Source of the DNA: Phenylobacterium sp. Root1290
Lineage (GTDB): Bacteria; Pseudomonadota; Alphaproteobacteria; Caulobacterales; Caulobacteraceae
NCBI RefSeq assembly: GCF_001425305.1
Contig: NZ_LMEE01000002.1
Span: forward strand, 506,191-570,190
Direction of reading: 5' to 3'
Length of the DNA: 64,000 bases
Within the stretch, counting starts at the first letter, position 1. Every line of letters starts with the position of its first letter. This document shows positions 12,302 through 18,726 of the stretch, one piece after another. The position numbers and the translations under genes were made by a program. The notes beneath the pieces were generated by a model, which had not been told where the DNA came from, did no database searches, and saw only the letters and a program-made list of their open reading frames with translations.

Positions 12302-12340
12302 CAGTCCCTCCCCTGGGGCGCGGCTTGTGGCGCCTCCAAT

Positions 12341-12360
12341 TTCTGATTACAAAATCAGAA
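12341..12360. promoter_or_regulatory. Perfect inverted repeat, probable TetR operator
   Basis: TTCTGATT-ACAA-AATCAGAA: eight-base arms with a four-base spacer, lying in the short gap between the divergent alpha/beta hydrolase and the TetR gene. A related half site (CTGATCA) follows at 12363-12369. Position and symmetry fit the operator of the adjacent TetR repressor, controlling both directions. The local sequence is AT-rich compared with its surroundings, as expected for overlapping promoters. Confidence 0.7.
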
Positions 12361-12384
12361 AAGCTGATCACAGAGTCAATCGTC

Positions 12385-13044
12385 ATGCCGCACGACGGTG
12401 AATGGGCCGCGACGACCAAGGGCGAAGCCACCGCCGCCCGCATCCGCGCGGTCGCACTGGACCAGTTCTCGCAGCTCGGCTTTGAGCGGGTGACAATGGC
12501 CGGCATCGCAAAGGCCGCACGGGTGTCGCAGCCGGCGCTGCACTACCATTTCGAGGACAAGGCCCACCTCTGGCGCAGCGCCATGCTGGGCCTGCGCGCC
12601 GTGATCCAGGAGGAGGAGCGGCTGATCGAGGCCGCCGCCGACGCGCCGCCGCTCACCCAGCTGCGGGTCGCCATGCGGCTGTTCCTGCAGATCAGCTGGA
12701 AGCACCCGGCCCTCGGCCGGATCGTGGCGCTGGAGGGCATGGCCGGGGGCGAGCGGCTGGAGTGGCTGGACCGTCACCTGCTCGGCGCGCGCAATCGCCG
12801 GCTGGCCGCCATCGCCGGCGAGGCCATCGCCGCCGGCGACCTCCTGCCCTACCCGCCCGAGCAGATCGTGGTGACGCTGCAGACCGCGGCGGTCGGGGTC
12901 ATCAACCTGGCGCCGCTGATGCGCACGACCTTCGACTGCGACGTGGCCGCCGACCGCGCCATCCACGACGAGATGATCCTGGAGGCCGTCCTCGGCGGCT
13001 TCCTGACTGAAAAGGGCCGAAGAGCCCGGGAGGAAACGCAATGA
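12385..13044 (+). CDS. TetR/AcrR-family transcriptional regulator
   Basis: A 219-aa repressor. The N-terminal helix-turn-helix (about residues 35-60) is seen as VTMAGIAKAARVSQPALHYHF, with the typical YHF ending and following K/E-rich helix. The C-terminal ligand domain is less conserved. The ATG at 12385 is chosen because an upstream in-frame ATG (12325) would run through the operator. The stop overlaps the ATG of the VOC gene (ATGA), so regulator and pathway genes form one operon. It probably represses itself, the downstream genes and the divergent hydrolase until a pathway intermediate binds. Confidence 0.92.
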   Translation: MPHDGEWAATTKGEATAARIRAVALDQFSQLGFERVTMAGIAKAARVSQPALHYHFEDKAHLWRSAMLGLRAVIQEEERLIEAAADAPPLTQLRVAMRLFLQISWKHPALGRIVALEGMAGGERLEWLDRHLLGARNRRLAAIAGEAIAAGDLLPYPPEQIVVTLQTAAVGVINLAPLMRTTFDCDVAADRAIHDEMILEAVLGGFLTEKGRRAREETQ

Positions 13045-13721
13045 GCCAGCAGCCCAACGGTATTCACCACCTCGCCTTCATGGCCGCGGACATCAAGAAG
13101 CACATCGCCTTCTTTTCCGACGTCATGGGGTGCCCGCTCGTGGCGCTCTTCGACATGCACGGCGTACCGGGCGGACTGCACGCCTTCCTGCGCCTGAACG
13201 ACCACTGCTACTTCTCGATCGTGCAACTGCCGGCCGTGGCCGACATCCCGATAGAGCTGGGCCGCACCCACGCCGGCTCCGGCGCGTTGCCAAGCGCGGC
13301 CGGCACGCTTCAGCATTTGGCCTTCGGAGTGGAGACGGAAGCCGATCTCATCGCCATGCGTGATCGCATGCGCAGCAAGGGCGTCAATGTCATCGGCCCG
13401 ATCGACCACGGCATGTGCAAGTCGATCTACTTCGCCGGCCCCGACCAGATGACCCTGGAGGTGGCCACGTCCAGCGAGACCCTCGACCCGGCCGCCTGGA
13501 TCGATCCGGCGGTGCTGGCCAAGGCCGGCATCTCCGAGGATGAGGCCGCACGTTTCAAGGCGCCCGTCGCCTATGACGGCCCAAGCCCTGTCGCGCAGCC
13601 GCCCTATGACCCGGCCATGCCGCACATGGTCTATCCGAAGGCGGTCTATGAGCAGTTGCTGGCGACGCCGGACGAAGTGCTGACTAAGATGGCCTCCTAC
13701 ACCGCCCCGCCGGTCGCCTGA
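13041..13721 (+). CDS. VOC-family protein, extradiol-dioxygenase-like
   Basis: A 226-aa vicinal-oxygen-chelate protein. The three metal ligands expected of type I extradiol dioxygenases are visible: His10 (HHLAF), His92 (QHLAFG) and Glu140 (LEVAT). There is one VOC module of about 150 residues with a C-terminal tail of about 75 residues rich in Pro/Tyr, shorter than classic two-module ring-cleavage enzymes. It may be a one-domain dioxygenase or a related lyase. It is coupled to tetR by a 4-bp overlap and followed 3 bp later by a flavin hydroxylase, which would supply a hydroxylated substrate. Confidence 0.85.
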   Translation: MSQQPNGIHHLAFMAADIKKHIAFFSDVMGCPLVALFDMHGVPGGLHAFLRLNDHCYFSIVQLPAVADIPIELGRTHAGSGALPSAAGTLQHLAFGVETEADLIAMRDRMRSKGVNVIGPIDHGMCKSIYFAGPDQMTLEVATSSETLDPAAWIDPAVLAKAGISEDEAARFKAPVAYDGPSPVAQPPYDPAMPHMVYPKAVYEQLLATPDEVLTKMASYTAPPVA

Positions 13722-13724
13722 CCG

Positions 13725-14978
13725 ATGAGCTTCGACAGCATCGACCCGCCGCTGGCCGATCGCCGGATCCCCACGGGCGGCGACTTCCTCTCGGCCAAGG
13801 CCCTGGCCGAGCTGACGCCGGACCTGCTCGTGCAGCGGATGAAGGACCTGGCGCCGCGCATCGCGGCGGCCGCGCAGGAGGCCGAGCGCCTGCGCCGCCC
13901 GGTGGACGAGATCTGGAACGCCCTGCGGGCCGCCGGCTACTTCTACCAGTTCGTCCCCAAGGCGTTCGGCGGTCTGGAGGTCACCACCGACCAGTTCATC
14001 GACATCAGCCTGCCGATCGCCGAGGCGTGTCCCTCCACCGGCTGGGCGGCGTCGTTCTGCGCCGAGCACAACTGGTTCCTGGCCCACTTCCCGGAAGAGA
14101 CCCAGCAGGCGCTGTTCGGCGGAGACTACCCCTATGTCGTCGCCCCGGTGGTCAGCGCGCCTCCGGGCAAGGCCGTGCGCGTCCCCGGCGGCTACCAGAT
14201 CTCGGCGCACTGGAAGTGGGGCACCGGCGTCATGTACGCCGACTGGATCGTCGGCAGCACGCTGCTCGTAGACGACGAGGGCCCGCCGCGGCTGCTGAGT
14301 TGCCTGCTGCCGGCGCAGGACGCCCAGGTGCTCGACACCTGGCGTGTTGCCGGCATGGTCGGCACCGGCAGCAACGACATCGTCGTCCAGGACCTGTTCG
14401 TGCCGCAGGCGCGGACCGCACGCTTCGACTTGATCGCCGCTGGCCGCGGGCCCGGCTCTCGCGGCTATGCGAACCCGATCTACAGCATGCCGATGCTGCC
14501 GTTCCTGGCGATGACCGCGGCGATCTCCGCGGTCGGGGCGGCGCGCTGCGCGTTGGGCGCCTATCGCGAGCGGCTGGCCGGCCACGTGCGGATGGGCGGC
14601 CTTTCCAGCCAATCGGACAAGCCCGCCGCCCAGATGCGGCTTGGCCGGGCCAGCACCATGATCGACACGGCCGAGGACATCATCCGCAAGGTCGGGCGCG
14701 ACAACGTCGCCGCCGGCGCGCTGGAGGGCGCCGGCCAGGTGGCCGAGCGGCTGCGCACCCGCGCCCAGGTCGCCTACGCCGTCTCGATCTGCCGTGAGGC
14801 GGTGGCGCTGCTGGCCGAGTCCGCCGGCTCCAGCGCCCAGATGCTCGACCAACCGTTCCAGCGCTCGGTGCGCGACCTCAACGTGCTGTCGAGCCACGTC
14901 GTCTTCGACGTCGACACCGCCAACGAACTGCACGGCCGCAGCCTGGTCGGCCTGCCGCCGAACTCGATGCTGATCTAG
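13725..14978 (+). CDS. Acyl-CoA-dehydrogenase-like flavin monooxygenase (HsaA/HpaB-group)
   Basis: A 417-aa protein of the acyl-CoA dehydrogenase fold. Segments such as FGGLEVTTDQFIDI, ACPSTGWAASFCAEHNW and SAHWKWGTG match two-component flavin hydroxylases (group D; HsaA and related), which use reduced flavin to hydroxylate phenolic rings. The central GSNDIVV segment and the C-terminal helices are also typical. A flavin reductase partner is not visible in the window. It is the last gene of the tetR-VOC-hydroxylase operon. An acyl-CoA dehydrogenase acting on an unusual CoA ester is the alternative. Confidence 0.88.
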   Translation: MSFDSIDPPLADRRIPTGGDFLSAKALAELTPDLLVQRMKDLAPRIAAAAQEAERLRRPVDEIWNALRAAGYFYQFVPKAFGGLEVTTDQFIDISLPIAEACPSTGWAASFCAEHNWFLAHFPEETQQALFGGDYPYVVAPVVSAPPGKAVRVPGGYQISAHWKWGTGVMYADWIVGSTLLVDDEGPPRLLSCLLPAQDAQVLDTWRVAGMVGTGSNDIVVQDLFVPQARTARFDLIAAGRGPGSRGYANPIYSMPMLPFLAMTAAISAVGAARCALGAYRERLAGHVRMGGLSSQSDKPAAQMRLGRASTMIDTAEDIIRKVGRDNVAAGALEGAGQVAERLRTRAQVAYAVSICREAVALLAESAGSSAQMLDQPFQRSVRDLNVLSSHVVFDVDTANELHGRSLVGLPPNSMLI

Positions 14979-15768: not shown

Positions 15769-15876
15769 TTAGGCGCCGACGGCGGCGGTGGCGCCGGCCA
15801 GGCTCAGGCTGATGAAGACAAACGCAACGGCGACGCTGGCGTCGAAGAAGCGGCCGAGTTGGGTCAGAGCAGACAT
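15769..15876 (-). CDS. 35-residue hydrophobic peptide, paralogue 1
   Basis: A small gene encoding 35 residues: a short amphipathic start (LTQLGRFFD) and one hydrophobic helix ending SLAGATAAVGA. AAAGGAAAG lies 6 bases before the ATG. It aligns without gaps (offset 2) with the 37-residue peptide encoded at 16125-16238, with 15 of 35 positions identical, including FD at 11-12, SLA at 25-27, AT at 29-30 and the terminal VGA. Paralogy, ribosome-binding site and promoter together support a real gene. It is probably membrane-inserted. The function is unknown and I recognise no family. Confidence 0.72.
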   Translation of the reverse strand: MSALTQLGRFFDASVAVAFVFISLSLAGATAAVGA

Positions 15877-15935
15877 GGGGTCTTTCCTTTGTTGATCCGG
15901 AGCGGCGGGAGCCGCCTCGCGTCCATCTGGACGAT

Positions 15936-15974
15936 GTTTAGATAGGTCCGGATCTAAACAATGTACAGATACAT
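15936..15974 (-). promoter_or_regulatory. Promoter and inverted repeats upstream of peptide 1
   Basis: On the minus strand a -35-like TGTACA (15962-15967) and a -10 TATCTA (15939-15944) are 17 bases apart. A perfect repeat GTTTAGAT-N8-ATCTAAAC (15936-15959) covers the -10 and most of the spacer, placing it where a repressor would block polymerase. A second repeat, ATGTA-CAGA-TACAT (15961-15974), covers the -35. The block is strikingly AT-rich for this genome. The binding proteins are unknown. Confidence 0.55.
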
Positions 15975-16072
15975 TTTACATCGTAAGGTATTCAAAAATG
16001 CATGGAACACTGTGGGCGCTCAGCCCCTGCGGCTTTGGCCTGCCGAGCGCGGGCGCCGACCGACCGCGCAAC

Positions 16073-16100
16073 AAAAAAGGGGGCCGAAACCGGCCCCCTT
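16073..16100 (-). terminator. Rho-independent terminator of peptide 2
   Basis: On the minus strand a GGGGGCCG stem, GTTT loop and CGGCCCCC arm are followed by six T residues. It starts 25 bases after the stop of the 37-residue peptide, so that peptide is a monocistronic transcript and is not co-transcribed with peptide 1. Confidence 0.85.
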
Positions 16101-16124
16101 CGACACTGACTGAATTGTCGGCTG

Positions 16125-16238
16125 CTACGCGCCGACCGAAACCGTGGCAGCCGCCAGACTGACGCTGAGCGCAATCAGCACGAGCGGGACGACACGGTCG
16201 AAGAGACGTTCAAAACGGGTCAAACGAGCGAGAGACAT
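16125..16238 (-). CDS. 37-residue hydrophobic peptide, paralogue 2, divergent from TetR
   Basis: A small gene encoding 37 residues: basic/amphipathic start (ARLTRFERLFDR), then one hydrophobic helix ending SLAAATVSVGA. It shares 15 aligned identities with the peptide at 15769-15876. GGGAAGG precedes the ATG by about 8 bases. It has its own strong promoter (TTGACG-N16-TATCTT at 16302-16329) and its own terminator (16073-16100), so it is a compact, independently controlled unit. The probable TetR operator overlaps its -35, so it is probably repressed by the divergent TetR gene. Likely inserted in the inner membrane; function unknown. Confidence 0.77.
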   Translation of the reverse strand: MSLARLTRFERLFDRVVPLVLIALSVSLAAATVSVGA

Positions 16239-16301
16239 GACACACACCTTCCCAGTTGGAACCCTCGGGGGAGCGAGGGCTTTTGTAATTTGAACACCGC
16301 T

Positions 16302-16346
16302 AAGATAACGCCGATCTGAACGCCGTCAAGATGATCTTTACGGCGT
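16302..16346 (-). promoter_or_regulatory. Peptide 2 promoter with overlapping 27-bp palindromic operator
   Basis: Minus-strand promoter: -35 TTGACG (16324-16329), 16-base spacer, -10 TATCTT (16302-16307). The palindrome at 16320-16346 has arms ACGCCGTCAAGAT and ATCTTTACGGCGT around a central G; 12 of 13 arm positions pair. It covers the -35 and lies 26 bp upstream of the tetR ATG, so it can control both genes. The left arm also recurs as a direct repeat: TGAACACCGCTAAGAT at 16291-16306 resembles TGAACGCCGTCAAGAT at 16317-16332, suggesting a second, weaker site over the -10. Confidence 0.75.
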
Positions 16347-16372
16347 CCAGATTCAGTTTTAGAGTGATCGCC

Positions 16373-17002
16373 ATGAGAGAAGCTGCAGCCACCGACAATC
16401 GCCCCTATCACCATGGCGATCTGCGCCGCGCGTTGATCGACGCGGCCCGGCGACTGCTGGAAACCGAAGGCCCGACGGCCCTGTCGCTGCGCGCCGTGGC
16501 CCGTGAGGCGGGGGTCAGCCCGGCCGCGCCCTACCACCACTTCAAGGACAAGGGCGAACTGCTCGACGCGGTGGCGCACGAAGGCTGGGATCTGCTCAAT
16601 GAGCTGATGACCGCCGCCCGCGCCAGCCACGCCTCGGTGCGTGACAAGCTGACCGCGCTGGGCGTCGCCTATGTCCGGTTCGCACGCGACAACCCGGCGC
16701 TCTACCGGGTCATGTACGACTGCTCCCGCGACAAGGACAGCCTGCCCGACCACGTCCACGCCCAGAACGACAGCGCCTACTGCCAGGTCCGCGACACCCT
16801 GGTCGAGGCGGGCGCCGACCCGATGGACGAACAGGAACTGGAACTGGCCACCACCGCGGCCTGGTGCGCCGCCCACGGCCTGGCCGAGATGTTCTCCTTC
16901 AAGCAGTTCGACCACCTGAAGGACGCTCTTGGCGGGGACGAAGCCTTCCTGCGCGGCGTCTTCGAGCACATGGGCATTTTCGGCGCCGCCCACCACGGCT
17001 AA
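16373..17002 (+). CDS. TetR-family regulator with WHG-type C-terminal domain
   Basis: A 209-aa repressor. The N-terminus YHHGDLRRALIDAARRLL and the helix-turn-helix ending VSPAAPYHHFKDKGEL (about 34-55) mark the TetR subgroup that carries a C-terminal WHG domain; WCAAHGLAEM is the matching C-terminal signature. The ATG at 16373 is chosen because upstream in-frame starts lie inside the palindromic operator. It is divergent from the 37-residue peptide gene and probably represses both. The inducer is unknown. The stop lies 10 bases before the GluQ-RS start, so some read-through into that gene is possible. Confidence 0.92.
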   Translation: MREAAATDNRPYHHGDLRRALIDAARRLLETEGPTALSLRAVAREAGVSPAAPYHHFKDKGELLDAVAHEGWDLLNELMTAARASHASVRDKLTALGVAYVRFARDNPALYRVMYDCSRDKDSLPDHVHAQNDSAYCQVRDTLVEAGADPMDEQELELATTAAWCAAHGLAEMFSFKQFDHLKDALGGDEAFLRGVFEHMGIFGAAHHG

Positions 17003-17012
17003 AGCTGATCGG

Positions 17013-17858
17013 GTGTTCGTCACCCGTTTCGCCCCCTCGCCGACCGGCTACCTGCACCGCGGCCATGCCTTCTCGGCCCTCACCGCCTACGAGGCCGCGC
17101 GCGCGGCCGGCGGGCGCTTCATCCTGCGCATCGAGGACATCGACGTCACCCGCAGCCGGCCGCAGTTCGAGGCCGCGATCTACGAAGACCTCGCCTGGCT
17201 TGGGATCGAGTGGGAGACCCCGGTCCGCCGCCAGTCCGAACACCTCGACGACTACCAGGCCGCCCTCGCCGCCCTGACCGCCGACCACCTGACCTATCGC
17301 TGCTTCCGCACCCGCAAGGAGTTGGCCCAGGCCGCCGCCAGCGCGCCGCACGGCCGGCCCGACAGCTTCCGCGGCGGCCCGTTGCCCGCGCACGAAGAAG
17401 CCGCGCGCCTGGCCGCCGACCAGGCCTTCGCCTGGCGCCTGTCGCTGGACGCCGCCGAACAGGCGCTGGCCGGGCGTCCCCTGACGCTCACCGAGGAGGG
17501 CGAGGGCCCGGCCGGCGAGCATGGCCTCATCGCCGTCGACCCGACCCTCTCGGGCGGCGACGTCGTCCTCGCCCGTAAGGACGTCGGGGTGGCCTATCAC
17601 CTGGCCGTCGTCGTCGACGACGCGCTGCAGGGCGTGACCCATGTCATCCGCGGCCAGGACCTCTACGAGGCCGCCCATGTCCAGCGGTTGCTGCAGACCC
17701 TGCTCGACCTGCCCGCGCCGGTCTATCGCCATCACCGCCTGCTGACCGGCCCCGACGGCAAGCGCTACGCCAAGCGCGACCAGGCCGAGACCCTGCGCGA
17801 CCTGCGAGCCCGCGGCGTGACACCCGATGAGCTGCGCGCGGAGATGGGCCTTGGCTGA
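17013..17858 (+). CDS. gluQ: Glutamyl-Q tRNA(Asp) synthetase
   Basis: A truncated GluRS paralogue that attaches glutamate to queuosine at position 34 of tRNA-Asp. 281 aa from GTG 17013. The class I motifs are HRGH (15-18, in FAPSPTGYLHRGH) and KRYAKRD (about 250-256); the anticodon-binding domain of true GluRS is absent. The zinc site looks reduced: the usual Cys-x-Cys is replaced by RCFRT, and the later Cys partners are missing. The GTG gives the standard start directly before FVTRFAPSPTG. The end overlaps the next gene, so they are coupled. Confidence 0.9.
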   Translation: MFVTRFAPSPTGYLHRGHAFSALTAYEAARAAGGRFILRIEDIDVTRSRPQFEAAIYEDLAWLGIEWETPVRRQSEHLDDYQAALAALTADHLTYRCFRTRKELAQAAASAPHGRPDSFRGGPLPAHEEAARLAADQAFAWRLSLDAAEQALAGRPLTLTEEGEGPAGEHGLIAVDPTLSGGDVVLARKDVGVAYHLAVVVDDALQGVTHVIRGQDLYEAAHVQRLLQTLLDLPAPVYRHHRLLTGPDGKRYAKRDQAETLRDLRARGVTPDELRAEMGLG

Positions 17859-18726
17859 ACCGTCCCGCGGCGCAGGCCAGGCGTTGGCGGTGCTCGTCCT
17901 CGGCGCGGCCGTCATCGGCCTGGCCCCGATCCTGGTGCGGCTGGCCGACGCCGGACCCGCGGCGGTCGGCTTCTGGCGCGTCGCCATCGCCCTGCCGCTG
18001 TTGGGGATGATGGCGCTGCGCACCGATGGCGGCGTCGGCGCCCCCAACCGGTTCGCGCTGATGGCCGGCCTCGCCTTCGCCTGCGACCTGGCCTTCTGGC
18101 ACTACAGCATCCACTTCACCTCGGTCGCCAACGCCACGGTGCTGACCAACCTGACCCCCGTCGTCGTCACCGCGGCGGCCTGGATCTTCTTGAAGCAGCG
18201 TCCAGCCAAGCTGTTCGTGGCCGCCGTCGCCCTGGCGGTCGCGGGCGCCTGGATGATGGCCGCCGGACGCGGAGCCGACGCCCCGGGCGCCAACCCGCCG
18301 CTGGGCGACGCCTTGGCCCTCACCACCGCCGTCTGGTACGCGCTCTATTTCCTGGCCATCAGCGCCGCCCGCCGCAGCGTCGGCGCGACCCGGGTGATGT
18401 TCTGGTCCAGCGCCGCCAGCGCCCCGCTGCTGCTGATCGCCGCCCTCGCCCTCGGAGAACAGATCCTCCCCGCCACCACGGCCGGCTGGGCGGCGGTGAT
18501 CGGCCTGGGGATCATGCACGTCGCCGGCCAGGGCTCCATCGCCTGGGCGCTTGGACGGCTGCCGGCGGCCACGGCCTCGGTCGTGGTGCTGATCCAGCCC
18601 GTCGTCGCCGCCCTGCTTGGCTGGCTGCTGTTCGCCGAGGCGCTCGGCCCGCTGCAGTCGCTGGGCGGGGCCATCGCGCTCTTTGGCGTCGTGCTCTCGC
18701 AAGTTGCCTCGCGGCGAGCCAGATAG
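17851..18726 (+). CDS. EamA-family drug/metabolite transporter
   Basis: A 291-aa inner-membrane protein with about ten hydrophobic helices in two repeated EamA halves. Typical segments are GFWRVAIALPLL, NATVLTNLTPVVV in the first half and ATASVVVLIQPVVAALLGWL in the second. It probably exports a small metabolite; the substrate cannot be read from the sequence. I place the start at TTG 17851, which has GGAG seven bases upstream and overlaps the gluQ end by eight bases. An ATG at 17827 in the same frame lacks a ribosome-binding site. It converges with selO. Confidence 0.88.
   Translation: MAEPSRGAGQALAVLVLGAAVIGLAPILVRLADAGPAAVGFWRVAIALPLLGMMALRTDGGVGAPNRFALMAGLAFACDLAFWHYSIHFTSVANATVLTNLTPVVVTAAAWIFLKQRPAKLFVAAVALAVAGAWMMAAGRGADAPGANPPLGDALALTTAVWYALYFLAISAARRSVGATRVMFWSSAASAPLLLIAALALGEQILPATTAGWAAVIGLGIMHVAGQGSIAWALGRLPAATASVVVLIQPVVAALLGWLLFAEALGPLQSLGGAIALFGVVLSQVASRRAR

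Follow-up and report, generated by a model that had tools for sequence, protein, structure and literature searches.

TetR/AcrR repressors that combine PF00440 with PF13305 (WHG) and lie divergent from their target usually control an enzyme or a pump. The repressor considered here, from a 64,000-nucleotide stretch of the Phenylobacterium sp. Root1290 genome (the window, by which all positions are counted), resembles them in its domains, divergent layout, promoter-covering palindromes and apparent autoregulation. In contrast, its predicted target is a family of 35-residue membrane peptides with dispersed copies, two of whose members, P1 and P2, are encoded beside it.

SidA and DidA are stress-induced inner-membrane inhibitors of division in Caulobacter crescentus; SidA has 29 residues and binds FtsW, and DidA has 71 residues and binds FtsN (PMC4211646). 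P1 and P2 share with them the small size, a single inner-membrane helix (predicted here), an apparently dedicated regulator, and the bacterial family in which they occur. However, SidA and DidA are controlled by LexA and DriD, answer to a DNA-damage signal, and have known divisome partners.

AcrZ is an accessory peptide of the transporter AcrB. Peptides of this type resemble P1 and P2 in being short single helices whose gene may answer the signal of the transporter, whereas P1 and P2 are shorter, stop where the helix ends, and have no constant transporter partner. Type I toxins and DinQ/TimP-like peptides are similar to P1 and P2 in length, hydrophobicity, and a structured mRNA leader. On the other hand, P1 and P2 differ from them in their putative TetR control, their place in the core genome, and the lack of any antisense RNA found by Rfam.

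Small proteins of the membrane often escape notice, and the majority lack both a family and a regulator. A ribosome-profiling paper on C. crescentus adds 94 new, mostly small coding sequences, and TetR is absent from its main text. Searches of the literature on TetR and small membrane proteins in Caulobacter and its relatives, like those of the family databases, returned no description of the system, in agreement with the sequence-only reading of this DNA, which had named none.

The peptide genes and their family

Gene order in Caulobacteraceae is largely fixed as HNH endonuclease, peptide gene or genes (P1, P2), divergent tetR, and gluQ. In the window, the locus comprises the following observed and predicted features:

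15769-15876, minus strand: P1, gene of a 35-aa predicted single-helix membrane peptide (MSALTQLGRFFDASVAVAFVFISLSLAGATAAVGA); conserved family, coding signal, hydrophobic helix
15925-15943: predicted operator copy ATCTGGACGATGTTTAGAT, 0 mismatches, overlapping the P1 -10 region
15939-15944, minus strand: putative P1 -10 (TATCTA), by analogy with P2 and conserved in the P1 upstream alignment
15952-15970: predicted operator copy ATCTAAACAATGTACAGAT, 0 mismatches, containing the putative P1 -35 (TGTACA, 15962-15967)
16076-16101, minus strand: intrinsic terminator behind P2 (11 pairs, T run), from a terminator scan
16125-16238, minus strand: P2, gene of a 37-aa predicted single-helix membrane peptide (MSLARLTRFERLFDRVVPLVLIALSVSLAAATVSVGA), divergent from tetR
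16245-16250, minus strand: P2 Shine-Dalgarno region (AAGGTG), inside the conserved element AAGGTGTGTGTC that precedes the ATG, from the sequence
16262-16279, minus strand: P2 leader hairpin CCCTCG-CTCCCC-CGAGGG, with an invariant CUCCCC loop and a covarying stem
16288-16306: degenerate predicted operator copy, 2 mismatches, overlapping the P2 -10
16302-16329, minus strand: P2 promoter, TTGACG (16329-16324), 16-nt spacer, TATCTT (16307-16302), from a promoter scan
16314-16332: predicted operator copy, 0 mismatches, containing the P2 -35
16334-16352: predicted operator copy, 0 mismatches, containing the tetR -35
16337-16365, plus strand: putative tetR promoter, TTTACG (16337-16342), 17 nt, TAGAGT (16360-16365), similarly spaced in relatives
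16373-17002, plus strand: tetR repressor gene, 209 aa (TetR_N + TetR_C_33/WHG)
17013-17858, plus strand: gluQ, presumably for tRNA-Asp glutamyl-queuosine synthetase (family assignment from general knowledge; sequence and synteny)
17827-18726, plus strand: EamA (DMT-superfamily) transporter gene, overlapping gluQ

P1 and P2 align without gaps at an offset of 2, with 15 of 35 residues identical. Their local BLOSUM62 score is 72, where shuffled sequences average 22 (sd 4); none of 5000 shuffles equalled it, nor did any of another 5000 with each half shuffled on its own. The only other tblastn match of P2 in its own 4.26-Mb genome is P1 (E 0.004). Profile searches give a family of 182 distinct proteins (41 P1-like and 141 P2-like), whose pN/pS in frame is 0.49 for the P1-like and 0.38 for the P2-like members. 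In the shifted frames the ratio is above 1 throughout, at 1.06 and 1.85 (P1-like) and 1.32 and 1.86 (P2-like). Judged by this substitution pattern, the P1 and P2 frames are real genes, with purifying selection in the annotated frame only.

The sequence-only reading had placed both genes and their translations exactly, and its gapless 15/35 identity, its P2 promoter, and its clean terminator are all reproduced, the last two by the scans (TTGACG-16-TATCTT; 16101-16076). With a 182-member family and its pN/pS values, the observation as a whole holds far more strongly than could be shown from one stretch of DNA. Its remark that the genes are too short for normal gene callers went too far, as it is general knowledge that 35 and 37 codons do not fall under the limit of every caller. 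It had also proposed that the frames and a C-terminal VGA should be conserved in related genomes. The frames are; VGA is typical of Phenylobacterium members, and Caulobacter has, for example, GVVL in its place.

When 100 genomes of the same genus were sampled by tblastn, 91 had a match at E <= 1, and a single query across the bacterial family gave matches at E <= 0.1 in 6 of 22 genera. The named genomes with a peptide locus are Phenylobacterium, Caulobacter, and unclassified Caulobacteraceae/Caulobacterales; searches outside the bacterial family returned no more than marginal short matches in other families. No significant family match was obtained for P1 or P2 in Pfam, NCBIfam, PHROG, or PADLOC, and 24 P2 relatives compared with family profiles gave two isolated weak matches (best E 0.051). 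By these searches, P1 and P2 represent a previously unclassified family of ~35 residues.

Every one of the 134 members tested passes the Kyte-Doolittle membrane threshold in a 19-residue window, as do only 8% of random small ORFs; prediction thus bears out their earlier description as membrane peptides. None of the 134 carries a net charge C-terminal of the hydrophobic helix, and the AF2 model of the peptide is one helix (residues 3-36, pLDDT 92). In most P2-type members a FERxFDR-like segment stands ahead of the helix; in a sample of 24 sequences its E and DR never vary, and variants occur elsewhere. From the charge distribution, the peptides would have one C-terminal transmembrane helix in the N-in orientation.

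The P2 leader carries a conserved hairpin. In 38 loci (among L112-L191), CTCCCC lies no more than 75 nt from the start, in the usual case ~30-40 nt upstream. Its flanks can pair in 214 of 234 cells, whereas shuffles average 155 and reach at most 184; these loci were picked by the loop only, and the stem changes may partly reflect relatedness. Rfam gave no family at gathering score at the P2 leader or locus, with one sub-threshold chance match. The hairpin is possibly a second, RNA-level control, or a site for a protein or sRNA. In many species AAGGTGTGTGTC (16239-16250, minus strand) abuts the P2 start codon and is longer than a Shine-Dalgarno requires. A leader-peptide function for the two genes was considered and rejected, as P2 has its own terminator and neither frame runs into a same-strand gene at a fixed, close spacing.

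The repressor, its predicted operators and its inheritance

By its domains and modelled fold, the repressor belongs to the TetR_C_33/WHG subgroup of the TetR family, as had been read from the sequence alone. PF00440 (the TetR_N helix-turn-helix) scores 55.9 bits against a gathering cut-off of 24, and PF13305 (TetR_C_33) 54.6 bits against 26.8. The AF2 model is an all-helical TetR fold (pLDDT 85). A structure search (VIA) gives Z 17.9 for 3on2_A, its best PDB match, and for 1zk8_A; these generic TetR matches gave no clue to a ligand, the best one, 3on2, itself being without a known ligand.

The predicted operator is the 19-bp palindrome ATCTnnACRnYGTnnAGAT, derived from half-sites of the strongly conserved upstream DNA. 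An earlier model, CGTTYAGAT-N6-TATCTWAGC running from -35 to -10, was discarded since it matched the P2 site only and failed on spacing (7 at P1 vs 6 at P2); all sites were explained once the half-sites were re-read as 19-bp palindromes. The P1 promoter, whose elements are putative, repeats the geometry of P2 with a 17-nt spacer, and at P1, P2, and tetR the promoter and predicted operator appear as a single structure. The palindrome that P2 had been said to share with tetR corresponds to the copies at 16314-16332 and 16334-16352. The tetR start codon lies within 8 bases of the putative -10, and its mRNA is thus probably leaderless, as are 375 mapped mRNAs of C. crescentus (PMC4117421).

The 4.26-Mb genome contains 4 exact copies of the palindrome, all within the peptide/tetR locus. 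One-mismatch palindromes occur in it at about the estimated chance rate, and the two inspected among its near-matches with 1-2 mismatches (L072, L073) have no peptide. Across 60 genomes the reversed-pattern control has 0 matches. Among 25 loci fetched at exact matches in these 60 genomes, 16 have peptide genes; the other 9 are one truncated tetR of this type, one distant (37%-identical) tetR, and 7 isolated sites.

A peptide gene lies upstream of 79 of the 80 named tetR orthologs (about 49-94% identical), the exception (L121) being cut by a contig end, and is present in 38 of 38 further loci, mostly Caulobacter; the position beside TetR, which the sequence-only reading had suggested checking, is thus conserved. 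In twelve genomes with a full-score tetR the peptide seemed at first to be missing or doubtful; profile search recovered it in 11, and in the twelfth the locus is cut by the end of the contig. Not one peptide match came from 17 genomes lacking a full-score tetR, of which three belong to the same genus, eight to genus g3, and six to other genera. This joint presence and joint absence indicates that peptide and repressor are inherited together. The locus is best read as a compact regulatory module that is passed on vertically; in Caulobacter it belongs to the core genome.

The home locus holds one to three peptide copies, and in some species others lie scattered elsewhere in the genome. P1 occurs chiefly in Phenylobacterium. 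Caulobacter loci mostly have a single peptide, and three are present at some loci (L012, L128). In three close relatives (L004, L007, L008) the P1-P2 gap is ~0.9-1.3 kb, compared with the usual ~0.25-0.4 kb.

The extra copies in other Phenylobacterium genomes lie far from tetR, and every one has the palindrome upstream with at most 2 mismatches, so the repressor seems to own the peptide family and not a single neighbour. That TetR controls the peptides, as first proposed from this DNA, is strongly suggested by its divergent position, the joint presence and absence, and the predicted operators in all three promoters, and further by those in the promoters of the unlinked paralogs.

The regulon may exceed the peptides. 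Since gluQ starts 10 bases past tetR and eamA overlaps gluQ, both may share the autoregulated tetR transcript; gluQ may thereby fall under the same putative operator, and in Phenylobacterium the EamA gene is a possible third member of the operon. A tRNA-modifying enzyme (gluQ) may thus come under the same repressor (16373-18726).

Proposed mechanism and alternatives

At a probability of roughly 0.6, we favour an autoregulated TetR that keeps a family of inner-membrane micropeptides repressed until a ligand releases it, upon which the peptides would act on integral membrane proteins. The genes, family, operators, co-inheritance, and promoter geometry are the parts that the sequence supports. 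We infer that TetR binds the 19-bp palindrome repeated across the intergenic DNA. One site would cover the -35 and a second the -10 of each peptide promoter to repress P1 and P2, and TetR would also cover the -35 of its own promoter to repress itself. A small, probably hydrophobic ligand would then release TetR. The cell would thereupon make peptides of 30-40 residues, each with a short charged N-terminal segment (FERxFDR consensus in the P2-type) and a C-terminal helix, which would insert N-in in the inner membrane. Their target is our guess; they would most likely touch one or more integral membrane proteins by helix-helix contact and tune their activity, the candidates being a transporter or an envelope or division enzyme. 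A fuller form, in which a dedicated module of one TetR, one operator, and paralogous micropeptides is ligand-triggered, belongs to the core genome of both Caulobacter and Phenylobacterium, and adds RNA-level control by the CUCCCC-loop leader, is put forward tentatively.

The peptides could instead be accessory subunits of DMT/EamA-type transporters, with TetR sensing the exported compound and raising transporter and peptides jointly, which we regard as unlikely. Most Phenylobacterium loci have an EamA gene behind tetR that overlaps gluQ, and at one of the dispersed positions, in four genomes, the peptide gene adjoins a RarD-like EamA-family gene. However, a constant link to one transporter is absent: in most core Caulobacter loci no EamA gene is detected adjacent, yet the peptide is retained. 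Moreover, the cases beside RarD appear to be a single inherited position, and other dispersed copies adjoin a GST with an aldo/keto reductase, a zinc dehydrogenase, a Rieske oxygenase, or a beta-lactamase-like gene.

Slightly less probable is an action like that of SidA, in which the peptides would be stress peptides made on demand, serving as single-helix inner-membrane brakes on a division or envelope enzyme. SidA and DidA are alike in size and helix type and come from the same bacterial family, but they are under LexA and DriD, with no TetR (PMC4211646), and several dispersed copies of the peptide in some species are unlike sidA. A role as toxic membrane peptides such as DinQ, TimP, or TisB, held off by TetR and the structured leader, is more doubtful again. 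Size, hydrophobicity, and the conserved hairpin before the Shine-Dalgarno recall tightly controlled membrane toxins (PMC3567139, PMC7667032), yet the peptide sequence is under purifying selection and is inherited at a fixed place in the core genome. The patchy, mobile distribution of such toxins is not seen, tetR having an ortholog in 60 of 60 good Caulobacter genomes, and no antisense gene was identified by Rfam, a search that would miss a new RNA. A closed circuit with feedback on the repressor, in which the cytoplasmic FERxFDR would bind TetR and pull it to the membrane, is very improbable despite the near-exclusive pairing of peptides and tetR and a regulon apparently limited to peptides, as the dispersed copies would be redundant.

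If the favoured reading of a ligand-released TetR acting on membrane peptides is true, a repressor with a scattered micropeptide family as its regulon is an unusual regulatory design. Here ~180 homologs are known together with a likely regulator and a predicted operator. Because Caulobacter is a genetic model genus and carries the system in its core genome, the inducer and the peptide contacts are directly testable.

The 37%-identical TetR occurs in another family of Caulobacterales (L216/L217; G350 C1:333085). Upstream of it lies ATCTAGACATTGTCTAGAT, a palindrome close to perfect, and the place of the micropeptide is taken by divergent genes for multi-pass membrane proteins, the first of which resembles Aba4/DUF4281 by eye. 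With the same palindrome and no recognisable peptide adjacent, the ancestral role of the regulator may differ. Elsewhere in the window (12325-14978), a second TetR gene, a VOC-family protein, and an acyl-CoA-dehydrogenase-like flavoprotein stand in a row with the look of an unrelated catabolic cluster.
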